Made by a program: the position numbers and the translations under genes | Part shown: piece by piece, positions 349-6,968 of the stretch | Position numbering within the stretch: position 1 is the first letter of the stretch | Layout: every line of letters begins with the position of its first letter | Source of the DNA: Kiritimatiellales bacterium | Lineage (GTDB): Bacteria; Verrucomicrobiota; Kiritimatiellia; Kiritimatiellales; Pontiellaceae | Direction: 5' to 3' | Assembly (NCBI GenBank): GCA_015486775.1 | Contig: WFRA01000182.1 | Span: 1 to 13,732 of the forward strand | Length of the DNA stretch: 13,732 nucleotides | Notes under the pieces: model-generated | Told to the model about the DNA's origin: nothing | Database searches by the model: none | Seen by the model: only the letters and a program-made list of their open reading frames with translations

Positions 349-365
349 TTTCCAAAGCTTGGAAA
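349..365. repeat. 17-bp palindrome TTTCCAR-N3-YTGGAAA, copy 1 (intergenic)
   Basis: GTTTCCAAAGCTTGGAAAC, with one extra matching base on each side (348-366), is a perfect 8-bp inverted repeat around a 3-base centre. It lies in the pnp 3' untranslated region, five bases after the stop and just ahead of the terminator. It is the only intergenic copy of the family in this window. Confidence 0.85.
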
Positions 366-370
366 CAAAG

Positions 371-404
371 AAAAGGGCGTTCCGCAGGGAGCGCCTTTTT
401 TTCA
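371..404 (+). terminator. Rho-independent terminator of pnp
   Basis: AAAAGGGCGTTCC, then loop GCAG, then GGAGCGCC followed by seven T's (396-402). The GC stem has one bulged G and one G-T pair, and the flanking A's can pair with the T tract. It lies about 25 bases after the pnp stop and ahead of rsmD, so it separates the two transcription units. Confidence 0.8.
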
Positions 405-439
405 TTCCCGCCACGAGGAATTCCGAATAGGATGCGTGC

Positions 440-1000
440 ATGAGGATTACAAGCGGGGTTTTGAAAAACCGGCGGTTCAACGTTCCGAAAGAAGAGGTGC
501 GGCCGACGATGGAGTCGGTGCGCGAGGCCGTATTCTCGGCGCTGGGCGGAAGCTGCGAAGGGCTGAAGGTACTCGACCTGTTTGCCGGATCGGGGGCGCT
601 GGGGCTGGAGGCGTGGAGCCGGGGCGCGGAATCGGTCACCTTTGTAGAGAAAAATTCCAGTGTCTGGAAGAATCTCCGGGAAAATATCCAGCGGTTGGAA
701 GCTCCGGGTCTGGGCGGAACCCGGTGCATCAAGGCGGATGCCGTCCGGTGGCTGGAGCGCTCCGGCGAGCGGTTCGACCTGGTTCTGGCCGATCCGCCCT
801 ACGACCTCCCCAACGCCCTGCAAGAGACCCTCGGCGGCATTGCCGGGCATTCGGTTTTGACAGATGGCGGACGGGTGGTGTACGAGTTGCGTTCAAAGGG
901 CGGTTTCGAGATTCCCGAGGAGTGGGAAATCCTGCGCGACAAGACATATGGAAAAACGCGCGTCCTGATGCTTCAACCCAACAGAAAGGATAGGCCATGA
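440..1000 (+). CDS. rsmD: 16S rRNA (guanine(966)-N(2))-methyltransferase RsmD
   Basis: RsmD is an S-adenosylmethionine-dependent enzyme that methylates N2 of G966 (E. coli numbering) of 16S rRNA during small-subunit assembly. The 186-residue protein is of normal family length. Visible motifs are the N-terminal [13 protein letters not shown], the [15 protein letters not shown] segment (21-35), the SAM-binding DLFAGSG (46-52) and the N2-guanine methylase signature ADPPY (117-121). The ATG at 440 is preceded by AGGA at 429-432. The stop overlaps the coaD start (ATGA at 997-1000), so the two are translationally coupled, an arrangement of rsmD and coaD common in bacteria. Two 17-bp palindromes lie inside the gene at 654-670 and 685-701. 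Confidence 0.95.
654..670. repeat. 17-bp palindrome family, copy 2 (in rsmD)
   Basis: ATTCCAG TGT CTGGAAG: arms TTCCAG/CTGGAA around 3 bases. In rsmD it is read in the frame that gives SSVW (residues 73-76). Confidence 0.6.
685..701. repeat. 17-bp palindrome family, copy 3 (in rsmD, degenerate left arm)
   Basis: TATCCAG CGG TTGGAAG, only 14 bases after copy 2. The left arm has one change from the consensus. In rsmD it is read as IQRLE. Confidence 0.5.
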
Positions 1001-1512
1001 ACAAGGCGGCAGTGTGCGCGGGAACCTTCGACCCCATCACCATGGGGCATCTGGATGTGATTGAGCGGGCATCGCGCATTTTCCCGCGCGTGGTGATCGG
1101 CGTGGCGACCAACCCCGGAAAGAATCCCCTCTTCAGCCTCGAAGAGCGCATTGAGCTGGTGGTTCGGTCCACCGCCCATCTGGAGGGAATCGAGGTCGAC
1201 AGCTTCGACGGCCTGCTGGTCGATTTTTCCGAATCGAAGAACGTGCATGTGATCGTCCGCGGATTGCGCGCCTTTTCCGACTTCGAATACGAGTTCCAGA
1301 TGGCGCTGACCAACCGGAAACTCAAGCCCGCGATCGAAACCCTCTTCCTGATGCCGAAGCAGGACTACAGCTATGTCAGCTCCAGCAACGTCCGCGAGGT
1401 GGCCCTGCTCGGCGGCGACACCAGCAGCTTTGTTCCCCGGCCGGTGCAGAGCGCCCTCGAAGCCAAATTCGGCGGTTTCCAGGGATTGGAAATTCCCGAA
1501 GAAGCCGGTTGA
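997..1512 (+). CDS. coaD: Phosphopantetheine adenylyltransferase
   Basis: CoaD transfers AMP from ATP to 4'-phosphopantetheine, giving dephospho-CoA in the penultimate step of CoA synthesis in the cytoplasm. The 171-residue protein carries the nucleotidyltransferase motif GTFDPITMGH (9-18), the conserved K42 region (NPGKNPLFSLEER), RGLR (88-91) and the YSYVSSSNVREVA stretch (124-136) that corresponds to the ISST/SxxVRE motif. The start is the ATG that overlaps the rsmD stop, with AAAGGA at 985-990. The protein runs about 10 residues past the usual core. That tail (GGFQGLEIPEEAG) contains a copy of the 17-bp palindrome, so the motif may have shaped the C-terminus. Confidence 0.97.
   Translation: MNKAAVCAGTFDPITMGHLDVIERASRIFPRVVIGVATNPGKNPLFSLEERIELVVRSTAHLEGIEVDSFDGLLVDFSESKNVHVIVRGLRAFSDFEYEFQMALTNRKLKPAIETLFLMPKQDYSYVSSSNVREVALLGGDTSSFVPRPVQSALEAKFGGFQGLEIPEEAG
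1476..1492. repeat. 17-bp palindrome family, copy 4 (3' end of coaD)
   Basis: TTTCCAG GGA TTGGAAA, both arms close to consensus. In coaD it is read as FQGLE, near the C-terminus. Confidence 0.75.
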
Positions 1513-1559
1513 TTTCCGGAAACGGAGCGTGTAGCTTTCCCGCTCGCTCAAACCAAACC

Positions 1560-1654
<95 letters not shown>

Positions 1655-1670
1655 CTTTTCCCGCAAATCT

Positions 1671-2537
1671 TCACCTTCTCCGCATCCAGCCGGGCTTGGG
1701 CTTTTTTTCGGAGAGGAGGTGTTCGAGCTTGCGCTTGAAACCGTCCTTTGCGGCGAGGCCTTGTTTATAGATGGCTTCGGCCTTATGGAAGTCGAGCATT
1801 TCGATGTCCATGAGCGGGGGTTGGATATAGATGTCGACGGGGTGGTGCTTGAGCTTTTCCTGTGCCATGGCGTCCATCATGACCTGATAGGTGTGGCCGA
1901 TGGCTTCGATGGGCGAGGGTGGCTTGTCGGCGGGGGTGGAGCGCTCGCCCATGATGTCGACGGCGATCCGGATATCGCATCTGGGATCGAGCAGGTCGTG
2001 GGGAACATTGTTCACCAGCCCGCCATCGACGAGCACCCGGCCGTCGATGACGACGGGGGTGAAGATGTAGGGAATGGCCATGCTGGCGCGGATGGCGGGT
2101 AGCAGTTCCCCGGAGTCGAAGACGACCTGTTTGCGGTTCCAGAAGTCGGTGGCCACGGCCTTGAGCGGGATTTCCAGCTCCTGGAAGCTGGAGACCTGCA
2201 TCTGCTCGTAGAGAAAGCCGAGGAATTTCTCGCCCTTGATCAATCCCTTCGGCTTGAGGCTGAAGTGAGGGTCGATCAGGGAGAGCGCCTTGAAGGCATC
2301 CTTGCTACGGATGATCTCCTTGAACGAGGCGTTGCGCGGAGCAATCAGCTGTTCGATCATTTCGACGATCTCCGCCGCCGAGTGGCCGGATGCGTAGAGG
2401 GCGCCGAGGATGGCACCAATGCTCGTTCCGGTGATGCAGCAGGGCTTGATGCCCAGCTCGTCGAATACTTCCAGCACAGGGATGTGCGCAAATCCGCGCG
2501 CCCCGCCGCCGCCAAGAGTGAGTCCGATTTTTTTCAT
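1671..2537 (-). CDS. Patatin-like phospholipase family protein
   Basis: This is a 288-residue serine lipid acyl-hydrolase of the patatin/RssA type. Visible are the oxyanion-hole loop GGGGARG (9-15), the nucleophile elbow GTSIG (37-41, Ser39) and the catalytic Asp in DGG (171-173), which together make the Ser-Asp dyad of the family. No signal peptide is evident, so a cytoplasmic or membrane-peripheral enzyme is likely. The substrate cannot be read from the sequence. The ATG at 2537 is chosen because the protein then begins directly with the beta strand MKKIGLTLGGGG, and AAAGGA lies just upstream, inside the end of murJ. The murJ stop is one base before this start, so the pair is an operon with coupled translation. 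The basic tail KKPKPGWMRRR is unremarkable. Confidence 0.93.
   Translation of the reverse strand: MKKIGLTLGGGGARGFAHIPVLEVFDELGIKPCCITGTSIGAILGALYASGHSAAEIVEMIEQLIAPRNASFKEIIRSKDAFKALSLIDPHFSLKPKGLIKGEKFLGFLYEQMQVSSFQELEIPLKAVATDFWNRKQVVFDSGELLPAIRASMAIPYIFTPVVIDGRVLVDGGLVNNVPHDLLDPRCDIRIAVDIMGERSTPADKPPSPIEAIGHTYQVMMDAMAQEKLKHHPVDIYIQPPLMDIEMLDFHKAEAIYKQGLAAKDGFKRKLEHLLSEKKPKPGWMRRR
2171..2187. repeat. 17-bp palindrome family, copy 5 (in the patatin gene)
   Basis: TTTCCAG CTC CTGGAAG. On the coding (minus) strand it is read as FQELE followed by IP, the same peptide context as the coaD copy (FQGLE, then IP), although the proteins are unrelated. Confidence 0.7.
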
Positions 2538-2538
2538 A

Positions 2539-4113
2539 TTAGTGTCCTTTGATGGCGGATTTGATTTCGCGCAGCTCGGGGGCGCGGAAGAGGAGAGTGA
2601 GCAGCAGGTAGGTGGCTCCGCCGGTGCCGATGGCGGCGGCGAGGGTGGCGATCTGGGCGATTTTTGAGGGGAGGTGGTTTCCAAGGATTGGAAGCAGGAG
2701 CCAGGCCACGGCCCAGGCGGCCGCCGCCATGGCGACCCCGGCAAGCAGGCAGCGGAGGAAGCTGCCGGCAATTTCCAGCCATTGGAGGTTTTTGACGCGG
2801 CGGGTGAGGATGGTGCCGAGCGCGAACATGCCGGCGGCTTCGGCGAGCACGGTGGAGAAGGCCATGCCAGCGTGTTTCCAGTAGGTCGGCAACGTGAGGA
2901 TGAAGGCGATGTTCATGACGAGGTTGAGGGCAACGGTGTAGATGCCGATTTTGACGGGTGTGCGGGTGTCTTGCATGGCGTAGAAGGCGGGGACAAAAAC
3001 CTTGGCGGCGCTGAAGACGACGAGACCGGGGGCGTAGAGCCGCAGGGCGCGGGCGCTGAGCAGGGTGGAGCGGGCATCGAAACTTCCGCCCCATTCGAAG
3101 AGCGCTTGGAGGATGGCGGGCGCGAGGACAAAGAGGCCGAGCGCGGCGGGTACCATGATGAAGATGAGGTGCCGCAGGGAGTGGACGATGGTTTCGCGCA
3201 TGGATTCGGCGTCTTCCTCGACGGCGTGGGCGGAGAAGGTGGGTAGCAGAACGGTGGCCATGGCGGTGGCGATCACGCCGAGGGGAAAGTAGATCAGCCG
3301 CTCGCTGTAGAAGAGCGCGGCGGGTGCCCATCCGCCGATCCAGAGGGCGAGCAGGCGGTCGATGAGCACGTTGAACTGGGTAACGGCCATGCCGAGCGCG
3401 GCGGGGCCCATGAGCATGAGCATCTGCCGGATGCGCGGGTCGTTCCAGCGGCTGGAAAAGCGGAAGGGGCAACCAAAGCGCTTGAGGGCGGGCAGCTGGA
3501 TGGCGACCTGCGCAATGCCGGCAACCAGCACAGCCCAGGCGAGGACGTGGGCGCGGGCGCAGGGGGCGTTTCCAATGATTGGAAAACCCGCGACCATGGC
3601 GACGATCAGGATCAGGTTGAGCAGGCAGGGGGCGAAGGCCGAGGTGGCGAAATGCTTGTAGGAGTTGAGCACGGCCATGGCGAGCGCCGCCATGCAGATG
3701 AAGAGCACATAGGGGAACATGATGCGCGCGAGCGAAAAGGTGGTGGTCCATTTTTCGGAGAGGCCGGGAATGTGCAGGCCGACCGAAAAGAGCAGGATGC
3801 CGACGATGGAGATGGCGGTGAGCAGGGCGGCGGCCAGCGTGACGACCCGGGAGACCATCTTCCACGCGGCCTTGTCGCCCTCCTGCGTGCGGGTTTCGAT
3901 CAACACGGGAATGAAGGCGGCCGAGAGCGCGCCCTCGCCAAAGAGCCGGCGGAAGAGGTTGGGAATGGTGAAGGCCACGAAAAAGGCGGAGGCGATCAGC
4001 GACGTGCCGAAATAGTAGGCGATCACGACATCGCGCACCATGCCCAGGCCGCGGCTGAGCAGCGTGAAGCTGCCCACCACCCCGGCCGACCGGATTGTTT
4101 TCCCGTGTTTCAA
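2539..4113 (-). CDS. murJ: Lipid II flippase MurJ (MviN)
   Basis: MurJ moves lipid II across the inner membrane for peptidoglycan synthesis. The 524-residue, strongly hydrophobic protein fits the 14-helix MOP-superfamily family. The N-terminus LLSRGLGMVRD (18-28), then FFVAFTIPNLFRRLFGEGALS, is the MurJ signature. R21, R27 and D28 correspond to conserved cavity residues of E. coli MurJ (R18, R24, D25; alignment from memory). The start is TTG at 4111-4113, with a strong AAGGGGAG three bases upstream (4117-4124); the first in-frame ATG would be residue 25 and would cut helix 1. It is the first gene of a leftward unit with the patatin gene and diverges from lpxC over a 91-bp gap. Four 17-bp palindromes lie inside it. 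Confidence 0.96.
   Translation of the reverse strand: MKHGKTIRSAGVVGSFTLLSRGLGMVRDVVIAYYFGTSLIASAFFVAFTIPNLFRRLFGEGALSAAFIPVLIETRTQEGDKAAWKMVSRVVTLAAALLTAISIVGILLFSVGLHIPGLSEKWTTTFSLARIMFPYVLFICMAALAMAVLNSYKHFATSAFAPCLLNLILIVAMVAGFPIIGNAPCARAHVLAWAVLVAGIAQVAIQLPALKRFGCPFRFSSRWNDPRIRQMLMLMGPAALGMAVTQFNVLIDRLLALWIGGWAPAALFYSERLIYFPLGVIATAMATVLLPTFSAHAVEEDAESMRETIVHSLRHLIFIMVPAALGLFVLAPAILQALFEWGGSFDARSTLLSARALRLYAPGLVVFSAAKVFVPAFYAMQDTRTPVKIGIYTVALNLVMNIAFILTLPTYWKHAGMAFSTVLAEAAGMFALGTILTRRVKNLQWLEIAGSFLRCLLAGVAMAAAAWAVAWLLLPILGNHLPSKIAQIATLAAAIGTGGATYLLLTLLFRAPELREIKSAIKGH
2678..2694. repeat. 17-bp palindrome family, copy 6 (in murJ)
   Basis: TTTCCAA GGA TTGGAAG. On the murJ coding strand it is read as LPILGN. 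Confidence 0.75.
2772..2788. repeat. 17-bp palindrome family, copy 7 (in murJ)
   Basis: TTTCCAG CCA TTGGAGG, one mismatch in the right arm. On the coding strand it is read as LQWLE. Confidence 0.6.
3442..3458. repeat. 17-bp palindrome family, copy 8 (in murJ)
   Basis: GTTCCAG CGG CTGGAAA, first base off consensus. On the coding strand it is read as SSRWN. Confidence 0.6.
3569..3585. repeat. 17-bp palindrome family, copy 9 (in murJ)
   Basis: TTTCCAA TGA TTGGAAA, with perfect 8-base arms (TTTCCAAT/ATTGGAAA) around a central G. On the coding strand it is read as FPIIGN, the same frame as copy 6. Confidence 0.8.
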
Positions 4114-4204: not shown

Positions 4205-5239
4205 ATGACCGATCCAGGCAAAATCCTCATGGGCGACGGCGAGGCGATCCAGGCGTCCTACAAGCAGATGAACAACCAGCCAGTGGACTGGGATCTCTCC
4301 GGCCGCCCCGCGCAGCCGCTGCGAAGCAAACAGACCACGCTGGCAAAATCCGAGACCATTTCCGGCCCCGGCACCTTCATGGGCAAGGCGATGCGCACCA
4401 TCACCTTCGCACCGACCCATCTGGAGGGCTGGTGGTTCGACCGCACCGACCTGCCCGGCTCCCTGCCGATCCGCGCCGCGATTTCCAATGTCTGGACAAC
4501 CGGCCAGATCGTCAGCAACATTGTCCTGCGCAGCGGCAACCCGCACAACTATGTCCGCATGGTCGAGCATCTGGTGTCGCTCCGCATGGGCCTGGGGATC
4601 GACAACCTGCTGATCAAGGTCGACTCCGGCGACCCGCCCCTCTTCGAGCAGGGCAGTCTCGACGTGGTCGAGGCGTTGGAAAAATGCGGCACAACCGAGA
4701 TCGACCGCCCGGTGAAATATGTGACGGTCAAGGAACCCGTGACGGCGGGGGGAAGCTACGGCGACTTCATCACCCTTGCGCCGCCGGACGATCCGGCGAA
4801 TCCGCGGCTGCTCGTCGACTGCGCGGTCAACTTCCCGACGGCCATCGGGCAGCAGCGCATCGTCTTTCCCGTCGAACCCGAGCTGGTGAAGATGGCATCG
4901 GTCGCTCGCACCAACACCTCGCTTGGGAAGGTGGTCTACTGCGCCACCATCGGCAAGCTCTTCGCCGATATCCGCAACCTGGGCTACAACACCAAAAATG
5001 TTTCCATCGCCGGGAAAAAGCGCTACATCAACGAGCCGCGCCTCCCGCACGAAGGCAAGGCGCTCGAAGCCGCCTGGCACCGCGCCGTGCTCGACATGCT
5101 CGCCGCCATCGCCCTGATCCCCGACGGCCTGTTTGTCGGAAAAATAAAATCATACAAGGCCGGCCACCGCCTCGATTGCGAAATGATCAAACAACTATAC
5201 CTGAACCGGGAGCTGGTTCCGCTGGAGAAGAAATCGTGA
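4205..5239 (+). CDS. lpxC: LpxC-like UDP-3-O-acyl-N-acetylglucosamine deacetylase, divergent
   Basis: LpxC is the zinc enzyme of the committed step of lipid A synthesis. Family features seen are VEHL followed by GLGIDN (120-134; E121 and H122 match E. coli E78/H79), FDRTDLPG (78-85), ART (234-236), a late His/Asp pair (H292, D297) and SYKAGH (316-321, H321 for H265). Departures: an N-terminal extension of about 45 residues; GPGTFMG (54-60) with Phe58 where the family has the GLH histidine; HxxxxD instead of the HxxxD zinc pair; no acidic residue at the D246 position (A301); about 15 extra residues after ART. So this may be a diverged paralogue or an enzyme with an altered site. The ATG at 4205 has a weak GGA upstream; a rightward promoter is only weakly suggested (TTGATT 4132, TAAACA 4155). 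The end overlaps the next gene (GTGA). Confidence 0.82.
   Translation: MTDPGKILMGDGEAIQASYKQMNNQPVDWDLSGRPAQPLRSKQTTLAKSETISGPGTFMGKAMRTITFAPTHLEGWWFDRTDLPGSLPIRAAISNVWTTGQIVSNIVLRSGNPHNYVRMVEHLVSLRMGLGIDNLLIKVDSGDPPLFEQGSLDVVEALEKCGTTEIDRPVKYVTVKEPVTAGGSYGDFITLAPPDDPANPRLLVDCAVNFPTAIGQQRIVFPVEPELVKMASVARTNTSLGKVVYCATIGKLFADIRNLGYNTKNVSIAGKKRYINEPRLPHEGKALEAAWHRAVLDMLAAIALIPDGLFVGKIKSYKAGHRLDCEMIKQLYLNRELVPLEKKS
4482..4498. repeat. 17-bp palindrome family, copy 10 (in lpxC, degenerate)
   Basis: TTTCCAA TGT CTGGACA, one mismatch in the right arm. In lpxC it is read as SNVW, the same frame as copies 2 and 8. Confidence 0.5.
5179..5233 (+). repeat. Left 55-bp copy of the lpxC 3' end (direct repeat flanking the AlbA_2 gene)
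   Basis: This is the functional end of lpxC, coding EMIKQLYLNRELVPLEKK. It aligns without gaps to 6486-6540, offset 1307 bases, with about 40 of 55 positions identical by hand count. The matches include the first 12 bases (CGAAATGATCAA) and a 12-base run near the end (GGTTCCGCTGGA). It stops three bases before the GTG start of the AlbA_2 gene. Confidence 0.75.
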
Positions 5240-6516
5240 AAACAAAAATCGACCTCAAAGAGCTTGCTTCCCGCGAAAGCGAGCAGGTTGAATGGAAGAA
5301 AAATGTCGCCAATATCGAGGATGTAATTCGAACGGTCACCGCGTTTTCGAACGACTTCCAAAATATGGGAGGTGGTTATGTGGTGTGTGGTGCCGAAGAG
5401 ACGAAAGACGAACATGGATTTCAAAAAGTCACCTATCCGGGGCTGACCTCTGGGCGGCTCAAAGAAATTGAAGGGAAGGTCATGTCCGATGCCCGGAATA
5501 AAATTGACCCCGCTGTAACCCCCATAGTTGTCGAGCTGCCCGGGGAAAATGAAGGGTACCGCGTATTGGTGTTCATTATTCCCGCCACGGGTCATGCACA
5601 TAGTTATCGCCCATCGGGGAAGGAGAGTTCAACATACTATGTTCGGCTAAGCCGAGAAACTGTGGAGGCTAAAAACGGCGTGCTAAGAGAACTGCTCGTA
5701 CGAAAACATGCCCTTGCCCCATGGGATCGTCGGCTGGCGGAGCGAGCCGGAATTGAGGACATCGACTTGCTGGCCTTCCGGGAAGTGCTTCAGCAAATAG
5801 GTGCGTGGAATCCTTCAATTGAAATCGAAGAATATTTTTCTGATGCGATGAGAATTTCCGATTTTATTCCGTCCATGGGCGGCAAGCGCTCTCTGGATCC
5901 TGCAATTCATCCTCGAAATTTTGCCCTATTGCTTTTTGGGAATGAGCCAACCCGTTTTTTTTCCGGTGCCTGGACAAAAGTATCTTTTTATCCGGGAAAG
6001 GATCGAAGCGAGCGAACCGCCGAACGCCATGATCTAACGGGAACGATCGTGGGGCAGGCACGCAAGGCGCTTGAGCTCCTCAAGACACACGCTTCGACGG
6101 CCTACGACAAGGAATCTCTTGAACCGAATATATCCAAATATCCTGAACGAGCGCTACAGGAAGCAATCATCAATGCGATTGTCCACCGCGACTACGAAGA
6201 AGAGGATCCCATCAGCATTACTGTTTTTTCCGACCGGGTCGAAATCCGCTCTCCAGGTGCATTGGTTCGTTCGGTCAACAAAGACAAGTTTTTGTTGGGA
6301 CATGCATCACCGTCCTGGCGCAATCAATCGCTGGCCTACTTTTTTAACAAGCTCCAGTTTGCGCAGGCCGAAGGCCAAGGCATCCCAACGATTATCCGAA
6401 CAATGCGTCAACTTGGATCGCCTGCACCACAATTCGAACTCGAAGAATTCGCTGTAACATGCACTTTGCCAGCACATCCCCGCCACGAAATGATCAAGTA
6501 TTTATACAGCAATTAG
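5236..6516 (+). CDS. AlbA_2 (Schlafen-type) domain plus HATPase_c_4 protein, RecG-like COG2865 family
   Basis: A 426-residue protein of the type annotated as putative DNA-binding or RecG-related. The N-terminal AlbA_2 domain (about 10-155) shows ESEQVEWK, TAFSND, GGGYVVCG (45-52) and YYVRLSRETVEA. A middle linker follows. The C-terminal HATPase_c_4 module shows YPERALQEAIINAIVHRDY (302-320), with N313 in an N-box-like helix, VEIRSPGAL and GIPTIIRTM. There is no helicase motor, and the cellular role is not known from sequence. Relatives are frequent in accessory and defence regions. Start: GTG at 5236, overlapping the lpxC TGA, with GGAG at 5224-5227; the open frame upstream of this is antisense to murJ and not coding. 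The gene is clearly more AT-rich than its neighbours and sits between two copies of the lpxC tail. Its last residues (EMIKYLYSN) are read from the right copy. Confidence 0.9.
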   Translation: MKTKIDLKELASRESEQVEWKKNVANIEDVIRTVTAFSNDFQNMGGGYVVCGAEETKDEHGFQKVTYPGLTSGRLKEIEGKVMSDARNKIDPAVTPIVVELPGENEGYRVLVFIIPATGHAHSYRPSGKESSTYYVRLSRETVEAKNGVLRELLVRKHALAPWDRRLAERAGIEDIDLLAFREVLQQIGAWNPSIEIEEYFSDAMRISDFIPSMGGKRSLDPAIHPRNFALLLFGNEPTRFFSGAWTKVSFYPGKDRSERTAERHDLTGTIVGQARKALELLKTHASTAYDKESLEPNISKYPERALQEAIINAIVHRDYEEEDPISITVFSDRVEIRSPGALVRSVNKDKFLLGHASPSWRNQSLAYFFNKLQFAQAEGQGIPTIIRTMRQLGSPAPQFELEEFAVTCTLPAHPRHEMIKYLYSN

Positions 6517-6555
6517 CAACGGGTTCCGCTGGAAAATAAAAAGGAGAAGCCATGA
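6486..6555 (+). pseudogene. Displaced relic of an lpxC 3' end (right direct-repeat copy)
   Basis: Read in frame, it gives [17 protein letters not shown], against EMIKQLYLNRELVPLEKK at the end of lpxC: 12 of 18 positions agree. An in-frame TAG (6514-6516) now ends the AlbA_2 gene. Beyond it, the frame continues through KKEKP to a TGA at 6553-6555, which overlaps the yjbQ ATG as ATGA, the usual coupled-gene junction. This suggests it is what remains of the original lpxC end that once adjoined yjbQ. The alternative, that the tail came in with the insert, is not excluded. Confidence 0.65.
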
Positions 6556-6968
6556 AATCATACAGGAAAGAACTTTGGTTCGAGGCGTCGCGGCGGCGGC
6601 AGATCATCCACATCACCCCGCAGATCGACGAATGCCTGCGCGAGTCGGGCATCCAGGAGGGGCTCTGTTTGGTGAATGCCATGCACATCACCGCCTCGGT
6701 CTTCATCAACGACAACGAAAGCGGGCTGCACTCCGACTATGAAAAATGGCTCGAAAAGCTCGCGCCGGAAAAACCCTATTCGCAATATGCCCACAATGGC
6801 TACGAAGACAACGCCGATGCCCATCTCAAGCGCACCGTCATGGGGCGCGAGGTCGTCGTGGCCGTCACCGGCGGCCAGCTCGACTTTGGCCCGTGGGAGC
6901 AAATCTTCTACTACGAACTCGACGGCCTGCGCAAAAAGCGCGTGCTCGTCAAGATCATCGGGGAGTAA
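6552..6968 (+). CDS. yjbQ: YjbQ/UPF0047 family protein (secondary thiamine-phosphate synthase family)
   Basis: A small 138-residue cytoplasmic protein of the YjbQ (UPF0047) family, at normal length. Its members form compact trimers with a conserved His-rich pocket. Databases name the family secondary thiamine-phosphate synthase from weak activity in E. coli, and the true role is unsettled. The family pattern is clear: [13 protein letters not shown] (42-54, His45), then a second half with H81, [12 protein letters not shown] (87-98, His91), [18 protein letters not shown] (103-120) and the terminal strand [10 protein letters not shown]. The ATG at 6552 has a perfect AAGGAG at 6541-6546. The preceding region is the lpxC relic, and the FG-GAP gene starts 19 bases after the stop, so it lies in the middle of the plus-strand series. 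Confidence 0.94.

Follow-up and report, generated by a model that had tools for sequence, protein, structure and literature searches.

The window analysed here is a stretch of 13,732 nucleotides from a Kiritimatiellales bacterium (phylum Verrucomicrobiota; assembly GCA_015486775.1, here G000; contig WFRA01000182.1, G000:C182). In it a single accessory gene, encoding a protein with SLFN_AlbA_2 and HATPase domains, lies between lpxC and yjbQ, with a copy of the lpxC 3′ end on either side of it. The features of the locus, in window coordinates, are as follows.

2539..4113, minus strand: murJ (lipid II flippase), native left neighbour of lpxC (Pfam MurJ, E 2.7e-104)
4205..5239, plus strand: lpxC, intact, 344 residues (Pfam LpxC, E 3e-31); its 3′ end is now formed by the left tail copy
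5179..5233, plus strand: left lpxC tail copy, in use (alignment)
5179..5187, plus strand: CGAAATGAT in the left lpxC tail, the microhomology partner (sequence)
5236..6516, plus strand: inserted SLFN_AlbA_2/HATPase gene, 426 residues, 3′-truncated relative to relatives of 659–660 residues (Pfam, alignment, GC content)
5275..5670, plus strand: SLFN_AlbA_2 domain, residues 14–145 (Pfam, E 1.2e-9)
6208..6465, plus strand: HATPase_c_4 domain, residues 325–410 (Pfam, E 7.2e-20)
6486..6494, plus strand: CGAAATGAT fusion point, common to the inserted gene (HEM codons) and the lpxC tail (alignment, sequence)
6486..6555, plus strand: right copy, read as the displaced and decayed old lpxC 3′ end, with TAG as its tenth codon (profile, relatives, ATGA overlap with the yjbQ start)
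6552..6968, plus strand: yjbQ (UPF0047), native right neighbour of lpxC (Pfam UPF0047, E 7e-37)

The two tail copies, 5179–5233 and 6486–6540, align without gaps and are identical at 40 of 55 positions; none of 2000 shuffles of the right region reached the real alignment score. The first 9 nt of the right copy, 6486–6494 (CGAAATGAT), are also codons of the inserted gene itself, since its full-length relatives read HPRHEMM at this point, and only about 46 nt of the copy are unambiguously lpxC sequence. For this reason a profile of lpxC tails was built from the last 16 codons, up to VPLE, of 23 same-genus genomes, with the window excluded. The right copy scores 14.1 bits on this profile, a value reached at two of the 1,596,240 positions in 800 kb of the relatives G024 and G016 (both strands), and both positions are the true lpxC ends of these genomes. 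With the first 9 nt dropped, five positions reach the score of the right copy, two of them again true lpxC ends. Because the profile score is reached in the background almost only by true lpxC ends, we conclude that the right copy is a second lpxC end. Read through the TAG, its own stop codon overlaps the yjbQ start as ATGA, the arrangement in which intact lpxC overlaps yjbQ in several relatives, and retention of this overlap identifies the right copy as the old lpxC end, now displaced.

The inserted gene starts with a GTG at 5236 that overlaps the lpxC stop codon (GTGA) and ends with a TAG at 6514–6516, inside the right copy. A sequence-only reading of the stretch had reported the tail repeat at about 40 of 55 identities, translated both copies, placed the gene three bases past the left copy with its final codons taken from the right one, and noticed no transposase or integrase. 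All of this is borne out: the alignment, the shuffles and the profile agree on the repeat, the peptides are correct, and the profile score lies far above what the chance match feared in that reading would give. The Pfam matches of ten window proteins, a set that excludes the partial open reading frames (ORFs) at the window ends, include no transposase, integrase, phage, excisionase or relaxase family; the ORFs of the corresponding locus in the relative G007 were inspected by eye only. The single tRNA of the window (1560–1651) is distant from the insert.

Comparison with the same genus supports the view that the gene between lpxC and yjbQ is an insert. The lpxC search covered 25 same-genus genomes, of which 24 gave a match (none in G009), with lpxC identities of 64–85% across the genus. 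In 19 of the 24 loci yjbQ follows lpxC without an intervening gene: in 14 loci yjbQ starts 8–32 nt past the point where the lpxC match ends, and five have 112–181 nt and no gene. An AlbA_2 gene occupies the junction in two loci, the window and G007, where murJ is also the left neighbour of lpxC. G021 (locus L102) has a different gene there, an open frame of 874 residues, with 2.6 kb from lpxC to yjbQ and no lpxC tail copy, and two loci cannot be judged because G006 ends at a contig border and yjbQ of G015 lies outside the fetched flank. The alignment of related lpxC–yjbQ regions that had been proposed as a check thus upholds the single-gene insertion. By eye, some of the five gene-free 112–181 nt spacers (L004, L006, L008, L010 and L019) hold inverted-repeat-like sequence, and these spacers may be small dispersed repeats.

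In G007 the gene is full-length, encodes 659 residues and starts with an ATGA overlap on the lpxC stop codon. The lpxC-tail profile finds no second lpxC tail in the 67-nt spacer behind it. Since G007 has the gene at the same site without a clear second tail, the duplication does not always accompany the gene as part of a transferable unit; its absence there is also as expected if the duplication arose at the window joint. Close homologues (80–81% identity) are present in two of 27 other genomes of the genus, G007 at this site and G002 at another, and the lpxC–yjbQ gap of G002 itself is free of an AlbA_2 gene.

The homologues in G007 and G002 are 659–660 residues long, compared with 426 for the window protein, which leaves the family match at HPRHEM and ends seven residues later. 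By tblastn, no remnant of the C-terminal helical-repeat domain is found in the window. A structure model of the G007 protein (mean predicted local distance difference test, pLDDT, 85.5; predicted template modelling score, pTM, 0.66) has the last strand of the HATPase domain at residues 406–412 and the first long helix of the helical-repeat domain at 415–431, and on this model the truncation point of the window protein falls between the two. The truncation thus coincides with a domain boundary, so that the window gene has lost one whole domain and kept the others. SLFN_AlbA_2 (PF04326) scores 39.1 bits against a cut-off of 25.3 and HATPase_c_4 (PF13749) 71.2 against 26, both in the one protein; proteins with this pair of domains are of the COG2865 type. 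The window protein shares both Pfam domains, above cut-off, with a solved relative, 3lmm (DIP2311), which is the sole sequence match among solved structures (E 1.5e-8) and also the best fold match to the G007 model; TPR proteins follow it in the fold search, and TM-scores are low, at most 0.30 over the query. Unlike its closest relatives, the window copy is without the C-terminal helical-repeat domain.

Other short forms in the family, of 422–444 residues, carry unrelated ends just past HPRHExM or its equivalent. The sequence-only reading would have been undermined by relatives elsewhere that share its EMIKxLYxN tail, and the short relatives examined end in unrelated tails. No remnant of the C-terminal domain is found at 14 of 18 short loci, the window included; L081, L092, L097 and L098 show some. 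The gene tree pairs the window protein with full-length G007 (branch support 99/90) and P0058, a short form, with the long P0015 (86/89). Because at least two short forms stand beside long ones, loss of the domain is recurrent and apparently tolerated; a group count on this tree set the short forms against three mid-length ones only, and the wider scatter of short among long forms is read from the tree by eye and is well supported at these two places only. We do not claim that short forms everywhere arise by fusions of this kind.

The duplication begins at the CGAAATGAT microhomology, exactly where the protein departs from its family, and since the fusion sits at a 9-mer shared with the lpxC tail, the simplest reading is one illegitimate and one homologous joint. 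In homology-facilitated illegitimate recombination (HFIR) the illegitimate joint forms at a microhomology of a few base pairs, as short identical stretches of 3 to 10 bp; the joint seen here, CGAAATGAT, is 9 nt long. We give about an even chance to HFIR as the process that placed the accessory gene between lpxC and yjbQ. The incoming DNA would have come from a relative that already carried lpxC followed by the accessory gene, as G007 does today, and would have paired by homology with the resident lpxC end, while its other side joined illegitimately within the resident lpxC tail at the shared 9-mer. The incoming lpxC end would then have become the working end (the left copy). The resident end would have been pushed 1.3 kb downstream, still attached to yjbQ, where it lost its function and decayed. 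The accessory gene, in its full form with the helical-repeat domain, would have lost its last ~240 codons and received its stop codon from the displaced tail. The sequences themselves establish that the gene is an insert by comparison with relatives, that it is truncated, what the right copy is, and the microhomology; the donor, the direction of events and the mechanism as such are what we infer here. The sequence-only reading had considered an element that targets gene ends, duplication of the tail in recombination, and transfer with a foreign lpxC end; there is no sign of a self-mobile element at the locus, and the latter two accounts fit better.

The history of the gene bears on this reading. 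The gene tree joins the window and G007 proteins as sisters (99/90), whereas in both lpxC trees G007 pairs with G011 (99/98 for DNA, 98/88 for protein), which lacks the gene, so that either transfer or losses are needed. In the lpxC DNA tree G000 falls outside the clade of G007, G011, G006, G012, G017, G002 and G020 (95/90). Two histories would fit: a single gain with several losses, or movement of the locus, together with its lpxC junction, from one lineage to another. The GC content of the inserted gene is 0.50 compared with 0.62 for lpxC, and its GC content at third codon positions (GC3) is below that of the host lpxC in all three genomes (0.50 and 0.84 in G000, 0.43 and 0.70 in G007, 0.35 and 0.71 in G002), as would suit an outside origin. 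ComEC-type competence proteins are found in all seven genus genomes tested, the G000 copy being a fragment at a contig end, and the lineage may be able to take up DNA. As for a phage or plasmid vehicle, none of 41 pattern matches in viral contigs was confirmed, two unannotated phage records match at 27–28% identity, and no plasmid matches at E 1e-60.

Several observations weigh against HFIR as set out above. A later deletion would leave an identical junction. The lpxC trees place G000 only weakly: in the DNA tree it has a deviant base composition, and in the protein tree its position is unresolved within a group of eight. Between G000 and G007 the synonymous divergence (pS) is 0.73 for the inserted gene, 0.62 for lpxC and 0.49 for murJ; because the inserted gene exceeds both others, any transfer must be old or from an unsampled donor, and the sequences give no sign of a recent transfer from a genome like G007. 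Over the final block of lpxC the left tail is 0.78 identical to G007 and 0.74–0.79 to eight others and, being no closer to G007 than to other relatives, is not demonstrably foreign. The G007 spacer bears a faint likeness to the window right copy (2.2% of shuffles as good, compared with 7.5% against its own lpxC tail) and may hold a badly decayed remnant. Finally, the source assembly is fragmented, with 439 contigs and 72% completeness, and the junction rests on assembled sequence, not on reads.

A search for other genes of this type flanked by duplicated host-gene pieces, which the sequence-only reading had proposed, gave further cases. Of 37 family loci fetched, 34 were tested for direct repeats between their flanks (L093, L099 and L100 were left out). 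Short repeats of high identity, by a rule set after the hits had been seen, flank the gene in 4 of these 34 loci, all four from unrelated genomes, and in 5 of 35 with the window. The four are listed below.

L065: two ThiC tails, 92 nt, with a full-length gene between them
L092 (Planktothrix): HAD-hydrolase tails, 81 nt, on the opposite strand
L080: end of an ORF without a Pfam match, about 46 nt, on the opposite strand
L078: about 109 nt from the 5′ end of an ECF sigma-factor gene and the region upstream of it

That the L065 tails belong to ThiC is confirmed by thiC genes carried on plasmids (22 records, of which all 8 listed agree), and the tails have no match in the PDB. In the L065 genome thiC breaks off at a contig end before its tail, and no complete thiC lies on the fetched stretch. 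A nucleotidyltransferase/HEPN gene pair (L065 163–1008) directly precedes the first ThiC tail copy, and this thiC end may have received more than one cargo. The L092 gene is also truncated, at about 520 residues, its end running into the repeated tail. Around it (L092 4827–6618) only tail fragments are left of a HAD gene next to a WD40 gene, whereas two other Planktothrix genomes have a complete HAD gene beside the WD40 gene (L251, L242 and L243 compared with L092); since the L092 genome has a complete HAD gene elsewhere, a rearrangement has occurred there as well. It is uncertain whether the L080 repeat is a gene end.

Among controls, none of 91 neighbouring ORFs has such a repeat (three long matches of low identity, scores 26–34, are uncounted), nor has any of 22 usable distant AlbA_2 genes (Fisher p = 0.07 with 24 entered). 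N6-methylase genes gave 0 of 24 and AAA_15 genes 1 of 24, with 6 of 30 loci skipped in each family. The one case, L141 (Anabaena), has 61-nt repeats at 668–728 and 2637–2697 that are 89% identical and read like the 3′ end of a gene. Fisher p is 0.0013 against the neighbours, 0.0013 against neighbours and accessory genes together, and 0.08 against the accessory genes alone (5/35 compared with 1/48). Three loci are excluded from the 5 of 35: L060, a distant AlbA_2 gene whose 70-nt flanking repeat resembles, by eye, a dispersed palindromic repeat; L136, the second copy from Sorangium, which lies among large multi-copy repeats; and L085, which scores 33 over about 490 nt at low identity. With the rule relaxed to a score of 25 the counts are 6/35 for the family and 3/91 for the neighbouring ORFs.

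As background, a scan of 800 kb from two relatives gave 11 direct repeats of comparable size. By eye these are mostly domains shared within or between long genes; L230 has the matching ends of two neighbouring long genes, three repeats in L203 look like a series of displaced tails of toxin type, L236 has a second copy of a gene's start directly behind that gene's end, and none of the 11 is the end of a housekeeping gene around a single gene. Such scars are rare genome-wide and more frequent around gained genes, and the counts do not make them peculiar to the SLFN_AlbA_2/HATPase family. Because relatives in four unrelated genomes are also flanked, displaced pieces may be a general scar of accessory-gene gain. 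It is a tentative and rather doubtful extension that single genes of this family repeatedly enter genomes at conserved gene ends, which would serve as landing pads that need no recombinase, and leave displaced host-gene pieces as scars. The sources of these scars would be the ends of lpxC, thiC, the HAD-hydrolase gene and perhaps the unnamed ORF, and the start of the ECF sigma-factor gene.

Turning to other explanations of the window locus, the junction could also have formed in two steps. A full-length gene would have come in with a duplicated lpxC tail on its far side, by a staggered break, a template switch or Campbell-type integration, and a later deletion between the CGAAATGAT copies would have removed the 3′ end of the gene in the window lineage. 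The final junction would be the same, in L065 a full-length gene lies between two ThiC tails, and the C-terminal domain has been lost at least twice (in the window beside G007, and in P0058 beside P0015). This course requires one more event, however, and, as full-length G007 has no clear second tail at the same site, a loss in that lineage as well; we regard it as possible but somewhat unlikely. Site-specific integration typically leaves a duplicated gene end around its insert, and elements that lack an integrase but are bounded by att sites form a named class, the cis-mobilizable elements (CIMEs). On such an account the lpxC end would be an attachment site, the two tails attL and attR, and the other genes of the element lost. 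Against this stand the lack of integrase, excisionase and relaxase among the Pfam matches described above, the lack of a clear second tail, and so of an att-type repeat at both ends, in G007, and the fusion of inserted coding sequence to the tail at a microhomology, which is unlike site-specific integration. The one other insert among the 24 genus loci, in G021, also has no tail duplication, and a relic element is improbable.

Mobility of the SLFN_AlbA_2/HATPase gene itself, with the flanking duplications as its product, would account for repeated pieces of other genes at 4 of 34 other loci and for the sporadic occurrence of the long family, which at strict cut-offs has no member in 386 further genomes of the phylum or in 296 further genomes of another phylum, the lone match in each scan being the centre genome itself. 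However, the protein has no recombinase or transposase domain, 30 of 35 loci have no repeat (29 when the low-identity repeat of L085 is included), a repeat is also seen in another accessory family (L141, with the contrast to other accessory genes at p = 0.08), and repeat lengths (46–109 nt) and distances to the gene vary widely; we consider this very improbable. That the arrangement is an assembly artefact or a chance similarity is harder still to credit. The assembly of 439 contigs is fragmented, but the gene stands at the same place in the separate assembly of G007, repeat-induced misassembly is unlikely because the copies differ at 15 of 55 positions, and the lpxC-tail profile excludes chance.

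The 426-codon frame is open, and its ratio of nonsynonymous to synonymous divergence (dN/dS) to G007 is about 0.04, with synonymous sites near saturation. With both N-terminal domains whole, the truncated protein is probably still functional, as a predicted ATP-binding, nucleic-acid-linked accessory protein, and it may perhaps have a role in defence. PADLOC gives three matches, each to only part of a prokaryotic Argonaute (pAgo) or pAgo-associated model, the best with E 1.7e-18; the pAgo match covers residues 6–411 of the protein but only positions 32–434 of the 1121 in the model. AlbA_2 domains occur in pAgo proteins and operons, according to PMC6299218, a context that would suit a link with defence and does not demonstrate one.

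As a separate observation, the palindrome TTCCANNNNTTGGAA is strongly over-represented in the window, with 19 matches (both strands, at most one mismatch) compared with 0.26 expected. Ten of its 12 places lie left of 4500, some within coding genes such as murJ, and seven palindromic sites fall at 350–3584. A stricter form of it occurs 31 times in 400 kb of G016 (0.4 expected) and 8 times in 400 kb of G024 (0.3 expected), but not in 10 kb of G007.

Bacterial gene content changes largely one gene at a time, and the entry of single genes that bring no transposase is seldom visible. At the window locus one can read both the joint and the host-gene end that was displaced, and relatives show the empty site. 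If displaced pieces prove common around accessory genes, they would allow illegitimate gene gain to be recognised directly by computation, and some shortened proteins and unusual C-termini would be junction products; if single genes do enter at conserved gene ends, the pieces would form a searchable record of one-gene cargo insertions. Literature searches within one open-access library gave, as judged from titles and the opening lines of abstracts, no paper on the lpxC–yjbQ locus or on displaced host-gene ends around this family.

Three known systems invite comparison. Like a CIME, the window holds an insert without a recombinase, bounded by a repeated gene end; it differs in that no recombinase-bearing partner is seen, the right repeat is fused into the cargo gene, and the repeat is not found in G007. 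The second system is HFIR, which a Bacillus study describes as rare and RecA-dependent, known from the transformable species Streptococcus pneumoniae, Acinetobacter baylyi and Pseudomonas stutzeri, with integration of 3- to 10-bp segments (PMC6382021), and which is also reported for conjugation in Escherichia coli (PMC3240628). HFIR combines one homologous anchor with one illegitimate joint, and the window joint likewise lies on a short shared stretch; HFIR is known from observation, however, whereas the window case is read from a natural genome, in which the anchor side is unprovable. A related route to duplicated sequence is known in pneumococcus, where, according to PMC3784515, transformation can create duplications through unequal crossing-over between repeats. 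The third system is the effector/immunity arrays of Vibrio type VI secretion system (T6SS) clusters, for whose shifted-back 3′ gene ends HFIR has been proposed, according to PMC5361080. There, as proposed for the window, the old 3′ end is moved downstream when a new module comes in at a homologous anchor. In Vibrio the effector genes are replaced, whereas in the window the housekeeping gene remains functional and an accessory gene unrelated to it has been added behind it.

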